Source: Diphasiastrum complanatum
Lineage: Eukaryota; Streptophyta; Lycopodiopsida; Lycopodiales; Lycopodiaceae
Assembly: GCA_029204225.1 (NCBI GenBank)
Contig: CM055108.1
Span: 13,019,955-13,083,954, forward strand
Length of the DNA: 64,000 nt
Direction of reading: 5' to 3'
Under the pieces are notes generated by a model. The model was given only the letters and a program-made list of their open reading frames with translations. It ran no database searches and was not told where the DNA came from. Below are positions 17,958 to 55,042 of the stretch, in pieces (the stretch's first letter is position 1; each line of letters starts with the position of its first letter). A program made the position numbers and the translations under genes.

Positions 17958-18046
17958 AGAGCATGCACTGATCAGAAGACTCAACTACATGAACTTTGCT
18001 CAGAAACAGGAACACTTAAAGAAAGACACAGGGACTAGCCAAGAGC

Positions 18047-19768
18047 GTGAAGAAACCAGACCTGCTGCAGAAACCCATCCTCAGACCAAAAGGAGCACTG
18101 GGAGTTGTCTGCTACTACTGCAACATTACTAGACACATAGCCAGAGAATGCAGGAGAAAGCTAGAATATATGAGGAAAAGAACAGAGGCACAAGCGAATG
18201 TAGCAGAAGCAGAAGACAATAATATAGTGCTCATGGCCTTAGTGGAATCCGAAGAGCAGAAGGAATGCGTGCATTTCAAGGGAACAAGGGTGGAGGAAAC
18301 ACCACTCAAAAGGGTTCCATGGAAGAGAGCCGGGATGGAGCTGATCAGCAAATCTGGGGAAAATTCAAAAGGCAGAGATAACAACTGGTACCTGGACTCA
18401 GGGGCATCATGTCATATGACTTTTGACATGAGCCCTTTTTCTAGCTATCAAGAGGTCCATCCAGTAAGGCGAGTAATTATTGGTGATGGGATGGCCCTCT
18501 ATTCACCAGGAACAGGAACAATATGCATGAAACTCATGAATGGAAGAAGCGGAATCCTGAAGGACGTCTTATATGTAACTCAACTGAGCAAGAACCTATT
18601 GTCTGTAATAAGAATGACAGAGATGGGGCTGGAAGCGTGTTTTTCAGGAGACAAATGTCACATAACCAAGGAAGGCCAAAGCCTAGCCACAGCGTTGGTA
18701 GAAGATGGACTGTACAAATTCATGAGCAAGCCAATTAGTTTATATCAAGCAAATATAGCTGTGGCAAGGACTAAAAAGGATGTGATATGGCACAAGAGAT
18801 TGGGGCATATAGGAGCAGAGGTGATTGATGTGGAAGGAAAATTTGGTGAAAGGATTGGATTACCATGGAGAAGGAGAAGCCTACACTTGTCAAGGCTACG
18901 TCTTAGGGAAGCAACACATGGAGCCCTTCAAAAGGAGGCCAGGCATAATCACCACTTCACTACTGGAGCTGGTCCATACAGAGATATATGTGGGCCAATG
19001 GAAGTTGAATTGTTGGGACATTCCAAGTATTTCTTGACCATCATAGATGATTACAGTAGGAAGGTATTTCTATATACATTGCGCAACAAGGATCAGACTG
19101 TAGACAAATTCAGAGAATTCGTCAACATGGCAGAAAACCAGACAGGAATGAGAGTAAAGAGAGTCCGCTTAGACAATGGCGGAGAATACATAGGGAACAA
19201 ATTCCAAAGTTATTGCAAGGACAAGGGAATTCACCATGAATTTACCATGAGGTATACACCCCAACAGAACGGCTTGGCAAAGCGAAAGAATAGGAGCCTG
19301 TTGAACATGGCCAGGTGCATGTTACATGATAATGAAGTGCCCAAGTTCCTGTGGGCCGAAGCGGTAAGCACTGCAGCTTACATACTAAATAGGGTGCCTA
19401 GTACCACACCAGAGATTGTGTGGACAGGCGGACACAAGCCTACAGTGGAGCACATGAGAATATTTGGCTGTAAAGCCTATGCTCACATACCTGACGAGAC
19501 TCGGAAGAAGCTGGATAAAAGGGGAAACCCTTGTGTGTTTGTAGGGTACCCAGACAATGCCCAAGGTTACAAAGTCTATGATCCAATCAAGCGGAAGGTG
19601 TTACTATCTAGAGACATCATCTTTGAAGAAATGGATTATATGGAATCCAATATGAACGAGGTAAAAAGGGGGCAACCAGAGGTAATAATCATAGACAGTG
19701 GATGGGACACAACTCCTGCCAGGATAGAGGAAAGCCTTACAGAAACTCAAGGAGGCAACGATGAGTAG
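18047..19768 (+). pseudogene. Copia protease-integrase (Gag CCHC to integrase)
   Basis: A 573-codon open frame. Near residues 22-36 is the knuckle CYYCNITRHIAREC. Near 114 is the protease site WYLDSGASCHMT. At about 247 comes the pre-integrase motif IWHKRLGHIGAE. The integrase zinc region is out of frame between about 18810 and 18990: the other frame reads GEGEAYTCQGYVLGKQHMEP, so two compensating indels are likely. The catalytic core keeps its first Asp (DICGP) and second Asp (RLDNGGEY). The expected Glu of 'ERKNR' reads Lys (NGLAKRKNR), so the DDE triad is incomplete. The GKQH-type and 'FGCKAYAHIP' blocks are clear. Integrase would insert element cDNA. Confidence 0.9.
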
Positions 19769-29844: not shown

Positions 29845-31985
29845 CTATGTTGACTTGAACATGGATCTTGGTATTATTCCAAGATTGGCTCTATGCTTGA
29901 TGAAGGAATTCTTGCTCAAAGGTTTGGTGAGCAAATATGCAATACAAGATGATGTGTCGATGTGCTCCAAGTAGATTTTCCCTCCAATGAGCTTCTCTCT
30001 CACGAAGTGATGTGCAACTTCGATGTGTTTGCTCCTTGCATGGAATATTGGATTGTTGGCAAGGGCTTGTGCTGAAATGTTGTCACACATTATCAAAGGT
30101 AGATCTTCTTCTTTGATTATCTTTAGCTCCACTAGCAACCTCTTGATCCAAAGCACTTCTTTTGTTGTAGTAGTGAGTGCCTTATATTTAGCTTAAATTG
30201 AGAGTGATATACTTGCTTTTTGGAAAGCCAAGATATCAAGTTTCTTCCAAGATAAATGACATATGCACTTGTAGATTTCCGATCTGCTTTATCACTTGCA
30301 AAATTCGAGTCAGAATAGCCAACTATAGAAAGATCTTCACTTTTATATAACAAACCATAATCATAAGTTGAAGATATGTATCTAAGTACCCTTTTGGCCA
30401 TTTTCCAATGATGAATAGTAGGATTTTGCATAGCTTGGCTCAACTTATGAACACTAAAACTTATATCAGGCCTAGTTATAGTGAGCCAAATTAAGGAGCC
30501 TATAAGACTCCTAAAAAGGGTGATGTCCATAAGGATCTTTCATCACCTTTGTTACGGTCTTTTACAATTTGCTCCATAGGAGTTTCAATACTCTTACAAT
30601 CTCTCATATTGAACTTTTTTAACATTGAAAGAGCATACTTGGATTGATACTACTTCCTATTAGAATGATATCATTAACATAAATGAGAAGTATGACAATA
30701 TCTCTATCATAAAACTTGACATATAAGGAAGGATCATAGTTACTAAGATTAAATCCTAGTGACTCAAGAAAGGTGTTAAGTCGAGAATACCACGATCTTG
30801 GAGCTTGATTTAATCCATACAGACTTTTGAAGAAAACCCATTTGCAACCAATGGTGTGCTTGTTTGATGGAAGATCCACAAGGTCCCATGTTTTGTTGGC
30901 AATCAAAGCATCATATTCTTCCTTCATGGCAAGAAACCATTCCTTTGAGTTGAGTGCATCATATACATCCTTTGGATCCTCATGTGAGATAAAATAGGCA
31001 TAATTAGTGGAGTTGAGTTCCACTTGCTTGCCTTTATCTTCATATGTAAGCCTCTTAGGCTCAGATCTTTCTCTTTGTGATCTCTTTGGTGAAACGATTC
31101 GAGGTGACTCCTCTATTCTCGGCCCCATCTCTCCATGATAGTCTTGAAGAGTGATGATAGGAGAATCCTCTTGAGAACCTTTGATCTCGGCCTCCTCAAA
31201 GATGTATTTTTGATTCTCATGGAATATAACATCCCTACTCTCAATTGTAATTGAGGTAGAGGGTACATAAATTCTGTAAGCCTTTTTGTTGGATGAATAT
31301 CCAACCATGATCTTTTTAATAGAATTAGGATCATCTCTTTTCCTTGTTTCCAAGGGTACATGAACAAAGCAAGCACATCCAAAAACTCTAAGGTGATCTA
31401 CCTTAGGTTTCTTTTTAAACAAGACTTCATATGGTGATCTTCCAACAAGTGCATTGTGAGGTAATCTATTGCACAAATGGTTTGCACAATTAATTGCTTC
31501 TCCCCAATATACAATAGGCAAAGAAGCTTCAACTCGGATTGCTTTAGCACATTCACATAAAGATCGATTGTTTCTCTCATCAACTCCATTTTGAGATGGA
31601 GTATAAGCACAAGAAAACTCTCTCTTAATCCCTTCACTCTCACAATATTCATAGAACTTGTCGTAGATGTATTCACCTCCTCCATCACATTCTAAAGCTT
31701 TAACTTTGAAAGAAAACTATTTCTCAACATAAGCTTTGAAGATTAGAAAGTGATCAAATACCATAGCTTTTGAAGAAAGTAGATACAACCAAGTATATCT
31801 TGTAAAGTCATCAATAAAGGTGACAAAACATGTTGCACCACCAATACTTTTAGAAGAAGAAAAATGAACATTCGAGTGTATTAGCTCCAAGGGATGAGAT
31901 GTTTTAATAAAAGACTTTTGATATGGCTTTCTGTGAAGTTTTTAGCACGTGTGAGCTTCACCACACACCTTACAGGATCTTACTG
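29845..31985 (-). mobile_element. Ty1/copia copy A: integrase, deleted RT, RNase H
   Basis: Minus strand from 31985. The integrase core reads FVTFIDDFTRYTWLYLL, ECDGGGEYI, TPSQNGVDERNNRSLCE, then VYWGEAINCANHLCNRLP, KPKVDHLRVFGCACFVHVP and SRDVIFHENQKYIFEE. RT starts with EEYDALIANKTWDLVDLP...GCKWVF but jumps directly to FKSLYGLNQAPRSWYSR, so the part of the palm between them is deleted. The catalytic box reads YVND instead of YVDD. RNase H follows in two frames: ADRKSTSAYVIYLGRN and ARSKHIEVAHHFVREKLIGG. Gag and protease are absent. Copy B at 32.6-35.1 kb is a close relative. Confidence 0.9.
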
Positions 31986-39210: not shown

Positions 39211-39670
39211 GGCTGCTATCATTAGGGGATATTAGAACTCAAAATGGGCCCTTTGTCAAGATGTTGTTTTTGACTTCGCACGCTTTCAATGCTTATGTGT
39301 CCCAATGAATGGTGTCCATCTGTGATGAACTATAACAGTGGTTGACGGACGGAAATTGTATTTAACTTTCCCTGCCAAATTTTTGTGATTTTCAAATATC
39401 CCGCCGTGCAGAACAAAAAATTGTGATTGGACTACAGTTACTGCTCGAATACTCTTGTGCTGCCCGTCATTGTTCACTCGAGGTTGATTTGACGTCAATA
39501 GTCATAAACCGTGGTTAACTAATCCTTGTAGTTTAGGAACTTCTTGTCATTCATAGGTATACCTCTCATTTTCTTCATTCTATCTCTTATTTTAGATTGT
39601 CATTCTTAGGTTTACCTCGCAATCTCTACATTCTCTCCGTTCTCAACTTGTGTACTCGTATTTTCGACTA

Positions 39671-41005
39671 ATGTCTACACATAATTGGAGACCAGGAGGA
39701 ACCATTGATGCAATCAATATTTGCAATGAAAAAAATGCAGAAGATCAATGGATACCAAGAATATATCAAAAATATCAATGGATCTTGATGCATCCCTTTG
39801 CAAAAGGCTCATTCCAAAAAGAAAAAGATCAGATAACATATATAGAAGCTCTTGAAAAGGTAGGATAATGGATTTTAAAGTATCACCTGTCGGTCAATCT
39901 ATTACAGAAGTTTTAGTTCAGCATGCTTATCTTCACAATGAGCTCAACATTCATGATTTGAATCCAAATGAGAGAAGAAAATGCAATTGTAAGTTTTCAG
40001 ATTCAATTTCTTTAGAGTTAGCATTTTCTTTAAATTATATTTTTCTTGAGATGTTTTTGTTGGTTTTGCAGACTTGTATCCATAAATGGCAATCAGTTCA
40101 ATCGATTGCAGGAATAATCGTTGTCATACATTCGGATATCGGTATTTTACAATATAAAGGTCGTTTTCCAAAATCACTTTTAGAGTTAGGAGTTTTTTTT
40201 TATGATCACACCTATTTTTCTAATAAAAATGGTTTAGTTGGTAGATTAGAGCCATATCCTCTACCAGATTTTTTGGGTGAGGATTGGATTTCTCCTGATG
40301 CAGCAATTTCAGAAAGTTTTTGATCTAGGCTATATATTGATATTCAGAGTATGTTAAAATATAGCACTGGATCAAAGAATAATAGATTAAGTTGGTGTCT
40401 ACCTTTTACTATTTTTGTTGATTTTTTTTCCAAATGCAATGTTCGGAGAACGAAAACAATGTTTATTTGTAAAGGCTTGAGTGCTGATATAATCACCGAG
40501 TTGTTGGATGATGGTTGGGATACAAAACAAAATCAGAAAGTTGAGTGCAGAGTATGTTACTCATCCATGACATTTAGATATCACATCGAAAAACAAATGC
40601 TCACTTTGCTACTATATTATAAAAGATGGAATAAATACAAAAATGTTTGGAAGCCACTTGATCAAGATTTTGGTATAAACCCTCAAGAGCAACTTCAGAT
40701 AACAGTGAAAATAAATGACAACATTCTTGCAATGGTTGAGGTCGAGGAAGATTGGTGTCTCAATCACATTCGATCAGAACTAGACATGTTGCAATTCGAT
40801 CTACCTCAGTACTATCAATTTCAATTGAATGGTGTAAAGGTACGTTATGTCATATAAAAATATTTCTTTTTTTCTATTTCTAAGTGAATCAGTTTCATAA
40901 AATATATTAACTAAAACAATTTCTCTTGTGCAGGTAAGAGTAAGGCAGGAAGAGCATATAAAATACAAAGACATTGGAACATCCATCAAAATTGAAGATC
41001 CATAG
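39671..41005 (+). pseudogene. Unknown two-exon gene converging on the H3-C48 gene
   Basis: Starts MSTHNWRPGGTIDAINICNE at 39671. A frame change near 39865 leads to a frame from MDFKVSPVGQS (39868). This is open except for one TGA at 40321-40323 and continues to 40839. It splices in phase (GTACGT...TTGTGCAG) to a last exon, 40934-41005, ending SIKIEDP. Blocks that look well preserved: FPKSLLELGVFFYDHTYFS, CKGLSADIITELLDDGWDTK, YYKRWNKYKNVWKPLDQD and a C-terminal ITVKINDNILAMVEVEEDW...YYQFQLNGVKVR. That last part may be a ubiquitin-like or doublecortin-like beta-grasp domain, judged only from strand pattern. No known family is recognised. It faces the histone-protease gene tail to tail, about 0.67 kb apart, and may be its partner in one mobile unit. 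Confidence 0.5.
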
Positions 41006-41670: not shown

Positions 41671-43749
41671 TCAACTATCTATGATCTCTAAATCCATTTC
41701 TCTAATTGGAAGTAGCTTGGGTGGAGAACACTCGACCACTGCAACTGGATATGAATTTTTGATCACAAGCTTTATGGTCTCCTGTCTTAAGTGCATTATC
41801 TCCATTAAGGAGACCTTCGGGCATTTAAACTGAAAAAAAACATAAACACAGTTAAATGTAATTAATCAAAGATCAGTTAATATTAATTTGAATTAGAAAA
41901 AAACAAAAACACAATTAAAAGTTATAAATCGAAGATTACCTCTTCCAGATTTGGAAGGCCATCTTGTAGTGCAAGCCAATTAAAAAAGTATTTGGCATTG
42001 CATATGGTATACCAACCACAGTTGATAGAATCAACCTGCTGGGAGGACTGCAGAATCCAAATTTTAACATTATGAGATATCGGATCAACGCGCATGATGT
42101 TATAACTAAATCTACAATGAAAACAAGGGCGCGTCGAACCGATATTCAAAAAAATATTTTTTGAATATCGGATCAGCGCGTACGTAATGAAAAGAAATCA
42201 AACAATAACTACAAGGGTGCGTCGAACCGATATTGATAATTTTTTACCTCTGCATCAACAATTTTTAACTTCGTATATGCTTTTGCATTTGGTATTGGAA
42301 AGAGTTCCAGTATTTTGTATATATGGCTCCTGGCAATTTTGTGTGTGTGTGTGTGTAATAGAGTTCATCTTTAAACAAACTGGATTACACACACCCTCAT
42401 CATTGACGTATAAGGACAACGCATATAAGCTCCAATGATCACTGCAATCAGAAAACAATAAGTTAATGAGAATCAATGTGAAATCAAAATTCATATAAAA
42501 AATTCAACATAATAAAAACTGAAAAAAAAGACACTTACTTTGTGATATATGGCAGCACAAGAATTGGAGTACCCAGTCTGACGTATTGGAGCATATCATC
42601 GTGCAAACTTTTGAAATAAGGGAAATCAAATGTAGCCATGAATTGAAGGAGAAACAATGCTATATCTATAAACAATGGGGTCTAGAAATACTCCATCCAA
42701 TACTGAATGGCCCCACCTCCTACATTGTCACCTAGCATTTTATCCCTACTTTCTAATTCACATGTATGTAAACTAAAAAGAGGTGGACCAGCATTGGTCT
42801 TCGGCATTTTAAAACTGTATTGAGGACCTAAACCTTTAAGATACGTGTTTAACAATTGGTCATACTGTACATATTGAGGACTATTTACAAAGGCAAGTGC
42901 ATGGGGTGACGGAAGTAATACAGATAAACCAGAAAAAGAATTGTCATTTAAAATTTGATCTACCTTTACATTAACAAAATCATCTAAATAATTTCCTAGA
43001 ACAGGTGGAGGGGAAGTAATATTTATGGGGGTAGGAGGAGGAGATTTATTAGGAGAGGAAGATTTAGGAGGAGAAGTTAAAGTTGGAGTTCTGGGAGGAG
43101 AAGAAAGAGACTTAGGAGGAGAATTTGGAGGAGAATGCCTAGAAGAAAGAATCTCATCCAAAGGAGATGGCTTGGAAAAATCCCTCACTTTATTTGGAAT
43201 GCCAAGAGACCTCCTCCTCTTTGAAATACTCCCGCTCTGTAAATGAATAACAAGCAAGGATGGTTGAGATTGATTTCGTTTTCTCCTCTCTGAATCTTGT
43301 TTTGGAGGAGAGGAGGGAGCAGGTCTAAAGTATTCTACAAATTTGTCATATGTGTCCCGAAGCCTGAACACAATGTTGAAATCCTTGGGCATGATGGTCA
43401 CCCTCTTGGCATGGACAGCTACAACAAAAGTATCAAAAAGAAATTTCACCTAGAAATCCTCATATGTTGTGTGCAGCGTCTCAATTGCCGTTACCGTCCA
43501 TCTCACATCTGCAGATAGACTTTTTGTAACCTGCCTGATGGATCTCTGTATGTGAGCTTTCGGAATCAGAAGATTATTTGTCTTCTGTAGCTTTTGAATA
43601 TCCTTGAGCCAGGGTGGGTCTCTTCTTCTGCCCGTTGGCCTAGGAGGAGGTGGTGGTGGACGAGGTGGTGGTTGTGGACTTCCTTGTCCCGCTCCTGAGA
43701 TTGGTATTCCACTAGGGTGGCCTCGTGTAATTTGCTTGGTCTGTGCCAT
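41671..43749 (-). pseudogene. Histone H3-like domain fused to C48 (Ulp1-type) protease
   Basis: Minus-strand exons: 43749-42540, 42441 to about 42248, 42111-41940 and 41829-41671. Introns are GT-AG and the first and last junctions keep phase. Residues 1-14 read MAQTKQITRGHPSG, close to the H3 tail MARTKQTARKSTGG. A Pro/Gly linker follows, then an H3 histone fold: WLKDIQKLQKTNNLLIPKA, ADVRWTVTAIETLHTTYEDF and HAKRVTIMPKDFN. 'LLIP' and 'RWT' are CENH3-like; 'HAKRVTIMPKD' is standard H3. Next come about 110 residues rich in Ser, Pro and Lys. The C48 protease then has MLGDNVGGGAIQYW, NDHWSLYAL (His), CLKMNSI (Asn where Asp is usual), SSQQVDSINCGWYTIC (Gln and Cys, about 42020) and a tail ending MDLEIIDS. 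C48 enzymes cleave ubiquitin-like proteins. Lesions: TAG at 43452-43450 and TAG at 42684-42682, both in frame; a TGA closes exon 2. Confidence 0.75.
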
Positions 43750-44826
43750 TAATGACCAATATCGGATCAGCGCGCGAAGAAATTGAACCTAGGATGAGAA
43801 GTGGGGTACAACAGCACGTCGAACCGATACTTGAGTTCCACAATACCGATAGCTGGCAGCGGATGGACGCACGAGAGAAATTGCGGTTCGTAAGAAGTTT
43901 GTCTCGAGTGTGCTGTATAACTATCGCATGGATGTAGAGAAAATTTGAAATGAATGAAAACGTCATGGGTTAGATGTTCGAGGCACGAATTACAATGATG
44001 ATTTCTCCGAGGCTTGTCAATCAGATCAAACTAAATATCCGTCTATCATCAAAATAATTAGTCGATATCGAATAAAATAGAATTAATTTTGTCTAAAGTA
44101 TGGTCACATCTATAATTAAAACTACAAAAGTATGGTCACATCTAAAATTTATTGTTGAAATTGACAATGCTAAGCTAAAAATATTTGACCTTCTTTATAT
44201 CCCATCATTATAATCTCGTAAAATTCCAGCCACCATTATTTCACCCAATAGCAAATTGACGCGCATATACTGCATGTGAAAACCAAATTTTTTATTCCCG
44301 CCCGCTGATCCGATATTGGAAAATAATATGAATGATCAAAGCTTGATTCGATATATTCTCCTTAGCTTTGGACGGAATGAAGAGTCTATCGAATCAAGCT
44401 TTGATCATGCAAAATACACTCCAATAATTTCAAAAATTGTTGAAAAACTTTGTTTCCTACAATAGCGATTCGACGCATGCAGTCCAGTGAAAAATCATTG
44501 TTCTCTGAAGGCGCGCTGATCCGATATCCAGTTTTTCACCCGATAGCTAATCGACGCGCATATACAGCATTTTAAAATCAGAGGTGCTATTCTCGCACGT
44601 TGAAGCGATATTGGAAGGAATATGAATGATCAAAGCTTGACTCAATAACTTCTACGTAATCTTGGACAGTATAAAGAGATTACCGAATCAAGCTTTGATC
44701 ATGCATAATGGGGTCCAATAGTTTCCAAAATTTCAAATTTTTTTTTGCTCTTGCAATAGCGATTCGACACGCCTAGTCCAAATGGAGAATAACCATCTTC
44801 CGCCAGGCGCGCTAATCCGATATCTC
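42076..44826. repeat. Cluster of about 13 copies of an 18-bp motif
   Basis: The motif GCGCGYYRAWYCGMTATT or its complement is seen at 42076, 42129, 42164, 42217, 43758, 43814, 44248, 44301, 44461, 44510, 44541, 44594, 44753 and 44807 (starts, approximate). Two sites at 42129-42180 form an inverted pair around a run of A and T. One copy lies in a coding exon, three in the intron before it, one just upstream of the start codon, and the rest in the upstream tandem repeat. Both ends of the motif (GCGCG and TATT) are the most constant. I infer protein-binding sites of the element. Confidence 0.75.
43758..43776. promoter_or_regulatory. 18-bp motif copy beside the H3-C48 start codon
   Basis: aatatcggatcagcgcgcg lies nine bases upstream of the ATG at 43749 on the minus strand. 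A partner, gcacgtcgaaccgatact, lies at 43814-43831. The position suggests control of the gene's transcription or binding by its product; this is inference. Confidence 0.4.
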
Positions 44827-44830
44827 ATAC
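44241..44830. repeat. Two tandem units of 295 bp with internal palindromes
   Basis: Unit 1 starts tcacccaatagcaaattgac (44241), unit 2 starts tcacccgatagctaatcgac (44536). Each unit contains, in order: a motif copy, a second motif copy, an inverted repeat (gatcaaagcttgattcgat ... atcgaatcaagctttgatc, 44335-44407 in unit 1), a third and a fourth motif copy. The layout resembles an array of binding sites upstream of the H3-C48 gene. Confidence 0.8.
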
Positions 44831-44899
44831 GCAGAAGAATTATATTGGAGCATCTTATGAACGACTAATGAAAATATTCTGAATGAACATTATGCAGCT

Positions 44900-46900
44900 C
44901 TTTCTTTTGATCCATTACTTTTGGATTTCTTTGAGCTTCATACGAGGGGATTCAACTATCATTGCTCTAGAGAGTTTCTTTTGATCAAGGTCGATCTAGC
45001 TCATCTGTTGCTTAAGTTTTTTTTTTTTTCCTTTCCTCCTCAGCTTCTTTGCTTAATTTCTTATGTCTTCCAGTTGCTTCACCTGCTTGTTAGATCTTCT
45101 TTTGGATGATCAACCATTGTAGGTGGTAGTTGGTCTCTGCAGGACATTTGCAATGATCTTTTAGCCGCTTCGGTAAGACTATCAAAAATTGGAAATTTCT
45201 CAGGAGGATGATAAACTGATGATAAACAGACAGATGGAAGGTAGGGTGGAGGTGTGACATCAGTAGATGGTGTGGACGATAGACATGAGAATGGGCGCAG
45301 AGGTACGGTAAGAGGTCGGTTGAAGAAGGAGACTAATCTCCCAATGCTTGTGTTTTCTTTTTCTAAAGGATCTTCGTCGTGACTGGGATACTTCTTCTGA
45401 TCGAGTCGCTTTGGATTGCCCATCTGTCTTCTTAGTCTTGTCGTTGTCGACTTTGGGTTTGTGAGCTTGGCTGTCGATCTTGCTGGTATTGTGGCTGGCA
45501 GCGTAACTGCTCCAGTGGATCTAAGCAGATCCACTCTCTCTCCCCCCCAAAAAATCTCTGTTGGTGGAGATGTGGTTGCTTGTAATTGTTCATGCTCATG
45601 ATTGGATTGGCGTGTGGAACACGTAGTTGAAACACGTTGAACATGCGACTGGACTAAAGATTGAACAAATTTTAACGAAATTTGTTTCGATCTTGCTGTA
45701 GTTGACTCAAAAAGGAATATGACGATGAGATGCAGGAATCAACTCTAATGTTTCAAATATTTCTCAAAGTTTCAGTATGGTCAAAGATCGTAACTCTGTG
45801 CAAGCTGATTTGAAGGTGGATATATGAATGACAATGTATTCTTGAGATGAGCTACAGAAGACTCTCGTGCAGTAGGTGTTTCTCATGCAAAAATCAATCA
45901 CACACTAGGAATGAAGAGCAACAAGAAAATAAACAAACTGTACAGAGAGTGAGAACTGTAGTGCACTTGTCGAACAAAACTTGCATTCATCAACATTGAT
46001 AATGTACCTTGATAGTTGCAATATTTCATTTGTTTTGTAGAGTAATGTGACTTACGCTGATATGCCCTTGTCAAAACAAGGCAAGGTTGGTTACACTAAA
46101 ATCTACCATCATTGATAGCGGATGTTGTAAGATATAGTTTGAGATGCAGGTATGGTTGAGGTACTATTGTCCTAAGGAACTCTCTGAGCATGATATATAG
46201 AACCAAATCTCTAACAAGATTTCCGAATCCTAGATTTATTGTGTATTGGCACATTGGAAATCTGATCAACATGTGTAAAGACAAATAGATTTGAGGTTGT
46301 AGAAGGAGAAAAAAACTGTCAATTTCCTGTGGAGGATGCTCTTGGTTGGACATTGTAGTAGATGACGGAATATTGGTTTCACTTTCTTTCGACAAGGACT
46401 CATCTTATATTAGTGTCTTTGCATTATGGAACTAGTGTATTGTGTTGTAATGTAGAAGTTTGCAAGAAACTTCTCGATTGAGCAGCATGTTTAACTGTTG
46501 GTTGCTATGTTGCTCGTGTTGTTGTTGTGAGGATCCTATCGTGATTCATAACTGACGTGACGGGCAAGTAGGATCTTAGTTGGTTGTTTTGGGCAGTCTT
46601 TGAAACTGTGTTTTCTGATATCGGGACGCTCAGCATGGTACTTGGTCTTGACTGGACAATCAACCATGAAGTGGCCAGTTTCACCACAAATGAAACATCT
46701 GGTGTGCAATGGCCCTTGTATAACAGCATAGCCATCTTGTATGGCTAATGGTTCTGGACTTTCTGGTGGATATTTATGATAAGGCAAGACATGTCCAGAC
46801 TGTGATGGTTGTTTTTCATATTGTTGAACTATATGTGCTTGGATAGGCCGATATGAAGGACAAGCATCAACATGATGTGTAGTCCTAACTAGCATTTCTC
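44900..46900 (-). pseudogene. LINE/retroelement ORF1 with CCHC knuckle, broken
   Basis: Minus-strand pieces: 46895-46536 with CFICGETGHFMVDCPVKTKY, CPKQPTKILLARHVS; 46395-46096; 45644-45432 (Gln- and Arg-rich); 45534-45079 with LVSFFNRPLTVPLRPF and FDSLTEAAKRSLQMS. The knuckle is a complete CX2CX4HX4C. It belongs to the same family as 28109-28303. Such proteins bind element RNA. Frames shift repeatedly, and no RT follows on this strand. Confidence 0.55.
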
Positions 46901-47054
46901 GGCTCTCAGTCTTCGTTGGTCTTGTCTTCTCAGAGACCTCCTCGGTCTAAGGTGAGAGATGCTCTTGAGTTGCTCTGTCCGAGTATCTTGGGGATTCGTC
47001 AGAATCAGCCAATAGGGTTATACTCCCAATGAGACTGCAAAAAGATCATCTACA

Positions 47055-47195
47055 ATGGCCCTTTATTCGGGTTACATTGATATGAGCAAGCGAAAAAATT
47101 TAGAATTTTTGGATCCATATGAAAGGAGATTATTTCTTCATGACAATACCATCCGTCTGAATCTTGAAGAGGATGAGGATATGATAATTAAATAA
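47055..47195 (+). CDS. Small open frame or exon, 46 codons
   Basis: Reads MALYSGYIDMSKRKNLEFLD, then YERRLFLHDNTIRLNLEEDE to DMIIK and TAA. Composition is coding-like and the tail is acidic. The open frame extends upstream through YTPNETAKRSST, so it may be a last exon. Not recognised. Confidence 0.3.
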   Translation: MALYSGYIDMSKRKNLEFLDPYERRLFLHDNTIRLNLEEDEDMIIK

Positions 47196-47334
47196 TTTTT
47201 TGTAATAGGTTTTTGATATATTACAAGGATTTCTCTTTTTTAATGAATTTGAATGCCTTTTGAAATATCGTAATCCTTGGCGAGTTTTTAGCTTGATATC
47301 TAAATTGTGCTCTTCTATAAAACCATTGAAAAAG

Positions 47335-48074
47335 TTACACTAAATATTTATTTCTTGAATTATGTCCTCCATGGTTTTTTGCTCTATGAAATGGTCCCCT
47401 TGCTTGCCAATGAGATTTTTCCATCCCTTGTGATGACCAGATACTTAAGCTCCCATATTCCTTTGCAAAATAGGTTGCATGATGAAGAATGATGTGCTGC
47501 AAACAATAGTTTTGATTAGTTACACCAGTAGAAAAAAATATAAGCATGAATGAGAAAAGTACCAGATAATGATATAGATTAGCACCATGTAATGAGTAAC
47601 GTTGTCTTTTCCCCAACAATCATGTACAGATTTTACAAATGTGGTGCAATGATTTTGCAAAGTCCTCATATCTTTTGATGATAGATTTTCTTTTCTGATA
47701 ACACCTATGAGTTTGTCTAAGTTGCTCCACACTTGTCCCTTTTCCACTCGATTACTTCCTTCCAATGTTCATGTGGCTTGAACAATTTCTCTCCAAATTT
47801 CGTATCTGGCACTTGATTCTTTGCATGTGTGATTGGATAAGAATCTTCTTGTTTTAGCACCTCCAATTGATGGCTTATTGGGAACGTTTCCTTTTTTCCC
47901 GGATATTCTGTCACTTTTTTCAATCATGACATTCCCTTTATGTAGTCCTGCACTTGATAGAACTATTTCCAACCTTCTAATTGCTGCTTTAGCCACAGAC
48001 TCCGGTTTATGATTCCATGCTAGTAGAATATGCAGGTAAATAAGTTTTTCAATAATACGAACCTTAGCATGCAA
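47335..48074 (-). pseudogene. DNA-transposon protein C-terminus (THYMH ... SQGMEKSH type)
   Basis: Minus-strand exons: from about 48074 to 47586 and 47496-47335, spliced in phase 0. Reads IEKLIYLHILLAWNHKPESV, CKESSARYEIWREIVQAT, a TGA, VEKGQVWSNLDKLIGVIRKE, CWGKDNVTHYM, then HIILHHATYFAKEYGSLSIW, SSQGMEKSHWQARGPFHRAK, and a stop. The 'THYxH ... GSLxxxSxQGxEKxH' pattern is shared by proteins of several large eukaryotic DNA transposons (KDZ-like groups are one possibility). The exact group is uncertain. One in-frame stop lies at 47769-47771. Confidence 0.45.
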
Positions 48075-48089
48075 TGTGCATATGTGAAC

Positions 48090-48880
48090 CTATTTTAATG
48101 GAATTGGCAGAACACTTTTCATTGGGTACTGTTATTGTACGGCCAACAACTTCATTATTTCATATTGTTCTTGTTTGATCAAGATCTTGTTGAGTTTAGG
48201 GATCAATTTGGATCTTAGTGATTCATAAAATCTTCACACCATATGTGTGTTTATTAGATGATACCAAATTGGTACCTCATAACTACAAAATTGTAACTCA
48301 TGTAAGTACTCATAAAAACTTTAGAAAGTACTTGCATATCCCTTTAAAGTACTTGGAGTAGTTGTAACAAAGTTAAGAAAGTCGGGGCTAAGCATATGAC
48401 AAGTGGATTAGCTAGTCTTGAATTATAAAGAATAAGTGATAGCTAGCCTCCGACATGTGGATCTGCTGATTTAATAAAGTAGTTAAAGTCATTAAAGTCT
48501 TAACTCTACTTGAGGCCAAGGTACAGAGCCAAGTGTGCCGCGATGCGTTGTGTCACTGCGCTGATCACTTGCCAATAAAATGTGATCGATCAGAAACTGG
48601 TCAGGGTGGACATGGCAAATGGCAATAGAAACTATGGCAAGGAGTTGAATGTTCAACATGCTTAAGCTCTTGGATCTCACCTTCTTCCCAAGGCAACTAA
48701 TAATCTGATTAGTTGTCCAGTTGGCTCGTTCGAGATCAAGTCAGTCTATTTTCAATAATTATAATGTACTCCCTTCCTTCATGTTAATGAAGTTGGGATT
48801 CCATCCCATTCCTCAGTGGGCTATATCCCCGTTTAGGTTCATGGTCAGCTAGTGCCTAATTGGCGCGCACATATCATACT
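48090..48880. other. No gene seen
   Basis: AT-rich, short frames only. Confidence 0.4.
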
Positions 48881-53916: not shown

Positions 53917-55042
53917 CGAGTACATTTACGACATCATTCGCACAACGATAGAGGAGGTCGGACCACAGCGCGTTGTCCAGGTATAATCTTCTTTCATTAG
54001 TTGCTTGGTCATTTGTTGCTTAATGTTGATACAATAGTTTTGCGTAGTTTTCGATTGATTGCAATGTGTTTCCAAGCTGTGGACTGATCGTGTGAACGTA
54101 TCGCGAAAGGTTGTGATGGACAATGCGTCCAATTGCTGCGGTATGGGGGAGCTTCCTTCTTATGGCAGACTACCCCTCCATTGTGTGGACTCCATGCGCC
54201 GCACACTCATTGGACCTCCTCTTGCATTCCATCGGGCGCCTGCCTTGGGTCAGTGACATTCTCATGAGGGCACTTGCGGTTTGTCGTCACACGCAAGCGC
54301 CGCATGGCAGCCCTTTTCCGCACATTCAGCAGGTAAGCTGCCACTTATTTTTTGGCTCGTTCAAGATGTTTTTTTTTTTTTGTTTCATGTGTGCCTCTCA
54401 TTCCGTTTGTCAATGCAGGCTCGACTTGAAGAAGCCCGCTCGCACCCGCTTCGCCTACCAGTTCATCATGCTTGAGCGGCTACACAAGCTCAAGGGTGAA
54501 TTGTGGCACATGGTCACTTCTGCAGAGTTCATCGCCATGGACCTGTCCACGACCCCAGAGGGCTTGGCCTTCCACGACATCTTATTCATGGAGCCTTTCT
54601 GGGTGGATATGCAAGAGCTGATGGACGTCATGCGCCCCATCTACTCTGTTCTGAGGCTCGTTGATCGCGAGGGGTGCACGATGGGCCTCATTTACGAGTT
54701 CATGGACCACATAGGCGAGTCTCTCCAGCGTTCTGAGCTAGACCCTGCCAGGTATAAATTTTTTCCGTCTCACCATCCTTATTTCCATTTCGCACTTTGT
54801 TTCGTCTTGCTGCCGCAACACGATGGTATGTAACTGTTGCCTCCATGTGGTTTGGTCCACAGGTTGGAGCCTATCAGGTGCTTGTGGCAGCGGCGATGGG
54901 ATAAGTTTCATCAGCCCATTCACAGTGTGGCCCACATACTGCATCCGCTGTTTCAAAGCGAGAGGCAGTACGATGATGCATAGCTGCGTGCAGACTGGTT
55001 CACATACATCCGCCTCCTCAGCAGCGACACTGGGTTCCGCAG

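Follow-up and report, generated by a model that had tools for sequence, protein, structure and literature searches.

The window analysed here, a 64,000-nucleotide stretch of Diphasiastrum complanatum DNA, contains at 43749-41675 on the minus strand one four-exon gene in which an H3-type tail and an H3 fold are joined to a Ulp1/C48-like protease, as judged from GT/AG splice sites and comparison. Exon 1 (42539-43749) encodes the tail, the histone fold, a linker and the N-terminal half of the C48 region. Its frame, opening at 43749, reads in order MAQTKQITRG, a proline-rich stretch, the H3 fold (residues 37-131; 43357-43641), a Ser/Pro/Lys linker (residues 136-250 of the frame translation; 43000-43344) and the C48-like start. 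Exon 2 (42248-42441) carries NDHW, with the catalytic His, and KMNS; exon 3 (41940-42047) carries SSQQ and NCGW, with the Gln and Cys of C48; and exon 4 (41675-41829) supplies the C-terminal end and the stop codon. All four lie on the minus strand. Exon 1 is interrupted by in-frame TAG codons at 43450-43452 and at 42682-42684. Exon 2 is put out of frame by a (CA)n tract at about 42357-42340, a defect absent from the initial annotation. With two stops and one frameshift, the window copy of the gene is dead.

With TAG read as Q, the window protein matches the Pfam Histone family (PF00125) with an E-value of 8.5e-18 over residues 37-131. Among PDB sequences, all of the best 60 of 176 matches to the H3 part are H3 chains (top E 5.4e-16), as are the best 60 of 192 matches in a second PDB sequence search. 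AlphaFold2 run on the H3 part without an alignment gave a mean pLDDT of 46.9, too low for use. The initial annotation, made from the letters of the window, had recognized the H3 homology and held that the proposed fusion would fall if no histone-fold match were obtained or if H3 and C48 were never joined in related copies; the match was obtained, by Pfam and PDB sequence search instead of HHpred, and joined copies were found (below). A chance frame and a pair of neighbouring genes were both rejected as explanations, because exon 1 is common to H3 and the first half of C48.

The 162-residue H3 part, with X at the stop, was used as query and gave 9,354 first-look candidates, of which 150 were scored as matches; we refer to this family, to which the window copy belongs, as type A. 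Copy numbers here and for the other families are either lower bounds, taken from the best matches, or first-look candidate counts. The H3 parts of the scored matches other than the window itself are 77-87% identical. Thirty loci, among them that of the window, were compared in full, and 28 have at least one of protease exons 2-4 downstream of the H3 exon; in the other two, L018 and L020, similarity ends inside exon 1. Copies without the two TAG codons exist, as the initial annotation had suggested looking for. These counts are inflated by near-identical copies, which lie on unplaced contigs (for example, C430, C445 and C1862) or share a chromosome (C15, C9). We report sequence features for 26 nonduplicate copies, nine of 35 sequences having been removed as near-duplicates, some of them unplaced and some on one chromosome. 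A host gene family was rejected on the grounds of copy number, dispersal and element ends.

The type A gene belongs to an element, as the initial annotation had supposed: a dispersed repeat of ~9 to 10 kb with inverted ends and a DDE-like transposase. The ends begin CATTAGGGG (CATCAGGGG in copy C7). Allowing up to three mismatches, we counted 1,106 occurrences of the 5′ end in the genome and 0 of a reversed control; for the 181-base 3′ end, the best 40 of 1,576 candidates were scored, all at 96% or more. Type A copies have their far end about 4.3 to 6.1 kb upstream of where the H3 part starts, or 2.5 kb in copy C4c; end-to-end sizes are ~9.0 (C4), 9.1 (C15), 9.4 (C4c), 10.0 (C7) and 14.7 kb (C8). 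Among 100 listed of the 1,106 5′ ends, ten pair with a type A gene, eight of them upstream on the same strand at 4.3 to 5.9 kb and two not. The ends enclose a transposase-like gene, the H3-C48 gene, two antisense genes (B and C) and an ORF that is coiled-coil-like by eye. The transposase-like gene shows DDE-like motifs by eye (LDEC, GDLK, GMEK); 23 of the best 150 type A matches have it upstream and in the same orientation (null, 0.23). Pfam assigned no family over cut-off to the transposase-like gene, gene B or gene C; for gene C, DUF924 (0.0045) was a weak match under cut-off.

In the window, the element ends at its 3′ side with a terminal inverted repeat, CATTAGGGGATATTAGAACTC, at 39220-39251 (plus strand), up to which copies are alike and beyond which they diverge. 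A decayed antisense gene C follows at 40084-40854 (plus strand; copy comparison). Only the C-terminal part of the transposase-like gene is kept, at 47012-48122 (minus strand), within the same element copy (blastn, 90-97% to three copies; tblastn, 88 and 91%). At 44894-47011, unstranded, copy comparison shows other sequence in place of the antisense gene B of copies C7 and C15. By eye, this segment holds a CCHC gag-like ORF (46539-46946, minus strand), and a sequence 83% similar to it adjoins the 3′ end of copy L045, outside that copy. The window further contains copia-type pieces (rve, SH3_retrovirus, RVT_2), as well as a DUF659 match just over cut-off in one ORF, at 18020-19768 (plus), 30619-31716 (minus) and 54117-54833 (plus).

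Several known classes of element were considered. CACTA/EnSpm was ruled out, the ends being CATTAGGGG and not CACTA...TAGTG, with no 3-bp duplication seen by eye in five of five copies; no target-site duplication of any kind was seen by eye in these five. Membership in the Mutator-like elements (MULE, VANDAL) was likewise rejected: Pfam found no MULE transposase domain over cut-off, and no 9-bp duplication was seen by eye. An LTR retrotransposon was ruled out by the short inverted ends and by the lack of reverse transcriptase among the element ORFs scanned.

A search with canonical H3 matched 13 full host H3 genes, followed by numerous H3-like repeats, 12 of which were fetched. One of the 12, L070, is a diverged H3-C48 gene that defines a second family, type B; a 337-residue exon-1 query gave 9,624 candidates, 119 of them scored as matches. 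Exon 1 is stop-free in 26 of these matches and contains a stop in 93. Intron phases are 2,0,0 with GT/AG splicing, equal to those deduced for the window gene, and a part homologous to its exon 4 is present. Two natural type B copies read without a break, L070 over 491 and L076 over 470 residues, and in both the two domains exceed the Pfam cut-off (L076: Histone 1e-27, Peptidase_C48 1.1e-10; L070: 1.5e-24 and 7.9e-9). A third, L075, is open but has Phe at the place of the catalytic Cys. On the same strand and within 8 kb, exon 1 is accompanied by a His-bearing C48 exon 2 in 30 of the 119 matches (null mean, 0.24), 29 of these pairs at intron distance. The H3 folds of types A and B are 41-45% identical. 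We make no claim of transposase linkage for type B, since it was seen in 2 of 119 matches that are possibly one locus recorded twice. A search of IMG/VR confirmed no relatives for the H3 fold of L076. The layout first proposed for the window, an H3-like tail and fold, a linker and C48 in one minus-strand gene, is thus borne out by the window exons, by the 28 type A loci and by the two unbroken type B copies.

The protease identity of the gene, also proposed initially with His, Gln and Cys in place, stands on the motifs NDHW, SSQQ and NCGW and on the type B C48 scores. Taken by itself, the hand-assembled type A protein matches PF02902 under cut-off (E 0.075; best PDB match, 0.1). We assign it to C48 because it is homologous to the type B C48 region (28% over 264 residues, E 6e-30, type A being hand-assembled), which is itself over cut-off and matches Ulp1 structures: among solved structures, Ulp1-type SUMO proteases are best (6dg4, E 0.001; 1euv, E 0.0015). 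The element proteases share the HW, QQ and CGW motifs with Ulp1/SENP enzymes and differ from them in being fused to a histone and in the triad Asp, which by eye is probably replaced by Asn (KMNS) in both types. To judge from the sequence, this probable change may lower protease activity. Genome-wide, PF02902 gave three matches (best 150 of 520 candidates scored), 0 of them at copies of the H3-C48 gene. The top C48 match of the genome (L001, C5:76129325; 1.5e-9) is by eye an intact-looking SENP8-like ORF of 257 residues, 24% identical to the type B C48 region.

The other 11 of the 12 fetched loci (L062-L069 and L071-L073) form a third family, whose H3/CENH3-like gene has no introns and encodes a long tail, proline-rich in most; by eye, there is no C48 in the ~2 kb downstream. 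An antisense gene B is present in three loci (L062, L068 and L071) and is homologous to its type A counterpart (39% over 61 residues, E 6e-10; 32% over 62 residues, E 8e-5), and L071 has a transposase piece homologous to the type A transposase (43% over 105 residues, E 1e-29). We set 126 H3-like rows (13 host H3 genes, nine fragments and the last two rows removed; L070 included) against 150 of the 151 rows of the companion transposase list. A homologous transposase lies within 10 kb of 46 of the 126 (null, 0.18), on the opposite strand in 44 of the 46, 1.6 to 4.6 kb away and mostly at ~3.7 kb. Because the third family carries a gene B and a transposase homologous to those of type A, H3-like genes occur in two or more branches of the transposon group, whether or not the protease is present.

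This linkage bears on one possible use of the protein. Chromodomain integrases choose insertion sites by docking on chromatin, and the H3-like part might likewise dock a transposition complex on nucleosomes or chaperones for insertion-site choice, the protease freeing or maturing the complex. The transposase-like gene is linked in type A and in the third family, and the latter, with no C48 by eye in ~2 kb, suggests that a histone alone may serve such elements. We nevertheless consider such tethering unlikely: histone and transposase are separate genes, target-site duplications were not seen by eye in five of five copies, and no insertion pattern was seen, the genomic spread not departing from uniformity (KS p 0.14 for 108 of the 150 type A matches and 0.44 for 76 of the 119 type B matches, those on contigs of known length).

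In five type B copies picked for open frames, a choice that biases the estimates, pooled dN/dS of the H3 fold is 0.128 (shifted frames, 1.20 and 1.43), that of the first C48 part is 0.42 (0.56 and 1.77) and that of the linker is 0.76 (0.41 and 0.89). Single values are rough, as the 0.41 obtained for the linker in a shifted frame shows. In three copies, C48 exons 2-4 give 0.29 versus 0.69 and 1.73 in shifted frames. For the type A H3 fold the value is 0.44 versus 0.49 and 0.80, with flat codon positions (26 copies). In both families, the linker has the highest in-frame value among the exon-1 parts (0.90 in type A, 0.76 in type B). The histone fold of type B is under purifying selection. A gene captured long ago that multiplied with the element without serving it would accord with the exon-1 stops in 93 of the 119 type B matches and with type A divergence that looks largely neutral. 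Such a passenger is, in our judgment, improbable in view of the low dN/dS that type B shows for both the H3 fold and C48 exons 2-4, a fusion with equal intron phases in two families whose H3 folds are 41-45% identical, and the lack of a stop in 134 of the best 150 scored C48 exon-2 matches, ranked by similarity.

The element proteins share with core H3 and CENH3 a histone fold, the HAKRVTIMPKD motif and an H3-type N-terminus. In the 26 type A copies, HAKRVTIMPKD is nearly fixed (23 to 26 copies per position), as is the loop-1 Arg. T3 and K4 are present in 26 of 26 copies, whereas K9 and K14 are present in 0 of 26 (position 9 is G in 24, I in one and E in one). K4 is the sole lysine up to residue 37, unlike the tails of core histones. 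An exact MARTKQTAR occurs in two of the 26, and the N-terminal ARTKQTARKS tail with K9 that marks core H3 in none. Type B proteins start MDRRKQT, so that Ala-1 of H3 is not kept; K4 is kept and position 9 is Asp in five of five copies, and L070 also has Lys at position 3. Both fusion families thus keep K4 without K9. Further differences from core histones are that the proteins are encoded in repeats, that they bear hundreds of extra residues and a protease, and that their folds are 37-55% identical to host H3 (37-39% for two type A folds, 53-55% for two of type B).

The initial annotation had raised entry into centromeres by mimicry, which would make the histone part a captured CENH3 that enters centromeric nucleosomes. 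The fold has LLIP and RW motifs, which resemble plant CENH3, and type A is 40-41% identical to two plant CENH3 folds versus 37-39% to host H3. A tree of five type A, five type B and four third-family folds, with CENH3 references from other plants, makes types A and B sisters (95.3/95); the element proteins fall, at low support, among the CENH3 branches. Against this, host H3 is a little closer to type B and to the third family (51-55%) than plant CENH3 is (41-52%). Loop 1 has H3 length in type A and one additional residue in type B, not the longer CENH3-type loop; the PDB matches listed are H3 chains; and the genomic spread shows no departure from uniformity, as noted above. Centromere mimicry is accordingly not supported, and we regard it as quite doubtful.

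The non-coding DNA of the element contains repeated motifs. A motif scan of the region upstream of the gene (43759-44893, minus strand) revealed repeats of ATATCGGATCAGCGCG and CGCGTCGAACCGATAT, and further sites lie in intron 2 (42077-42233). These two related 16-base motifs have seven and 10 sites in the window, five places being common to both, where 0.10 and 0.12 would be expected. All window sites of both motifs fall inside non-coding parts of the element, and both motifs recur in four other copies. In Arabidopsis, as described in PMC5735166 and PMC10398659, VANC proteins remove silencing from their own transposons, to which they bind at clusters of short motifs in introns and upstream DNA. 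KIU (Kaonashi, Ulp1-bearing VANC) elements escape silencing according to PMC13317346, which gives the function of Ulp1 there as unknown.

By analogy with VANC and KIU, in the motif clusters within own DNA and in the Ulp1 domain, the H3-C48 protein is most likely a transposon anti-silencing factor, a reading in which our confidence is about evenly divided. We infer that the protein is expressed and that its H3 part would pair with H4 and then enter or dock on nucleosomes that cover non-coding DNA of the element itself. Docked there, it would have no K9 to be methylated, and the protease part, presumably active, would strip SUMO or a related tag off silencing proteins at element DNA. Moderate confidence in this anti-silencing role comes from the fused type B copies, the low dN/dS, HAKRVTIMPKD, K4 without K9, the transposase linkage and the candidate motif clusters. 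A broader action is also conceivable. K-to-M oncohistones block H3K9 methylation, and a protein that entered host chromatin broadly might do the same and so aid any element; the lost K9 and the well-kept fold would suit such a dominant poison. The burden on the host speaks against it, as does the clustering of the motifs within element DNA, which points to a local action; we hold it to be improbable.

Transposons capture gene pieces and rarely encode anti-silencing proteins. Some Ginger DNA transposons carry Ulp1 along with a Gypsy-like integrase; our elements resemble them as DNA transposons with a Ulp1 protease and differ in having no integrase by Pfam in the element ORFs scanned. To our knowledge, no transposon encodes a histone under selection, and no published histone-encoding transposon of such kind was found in the open-access PMC literature, as searched through titles and starts of abstracts. 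VANDAL elements with VANC or KIU are alike in being DNA transposons with an extra Ulp1-domain gene and with motif clusters in introns and upstream DNA, as given in PMC13317346 and PMC5735166. They are unlike in that PMC13317346 does not use the word histone, and our elements have a transposase-like gene without a Pfam family, CATTAGGGG inverted ends and no target-site duplication seen. Viral histones and macroH2A-type fusions, as covered in PMC9145170, are precedents for histones in selfish DNA and for a core histone joined to a large domain; they are viral or host proteins, and that paper does not use the word protease.

It is possible, and we suggest it tentatively, that these families represent a DNA transposon superfamily with its own H3 variant, fused in some lineages to a SUMO-type protease, that would put K9-free, K4-bearing nucleosomes on its own DNA, strip SUMO off silencing proteins at these places and so make chromatin which the host could not silence. 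If the anti-silencing reading is true, a selfish element would be contending with its host for the nucleosome itself, and the H3-C48 families would serve as a natural experiment on which lysines of H3 are needed for silencing.
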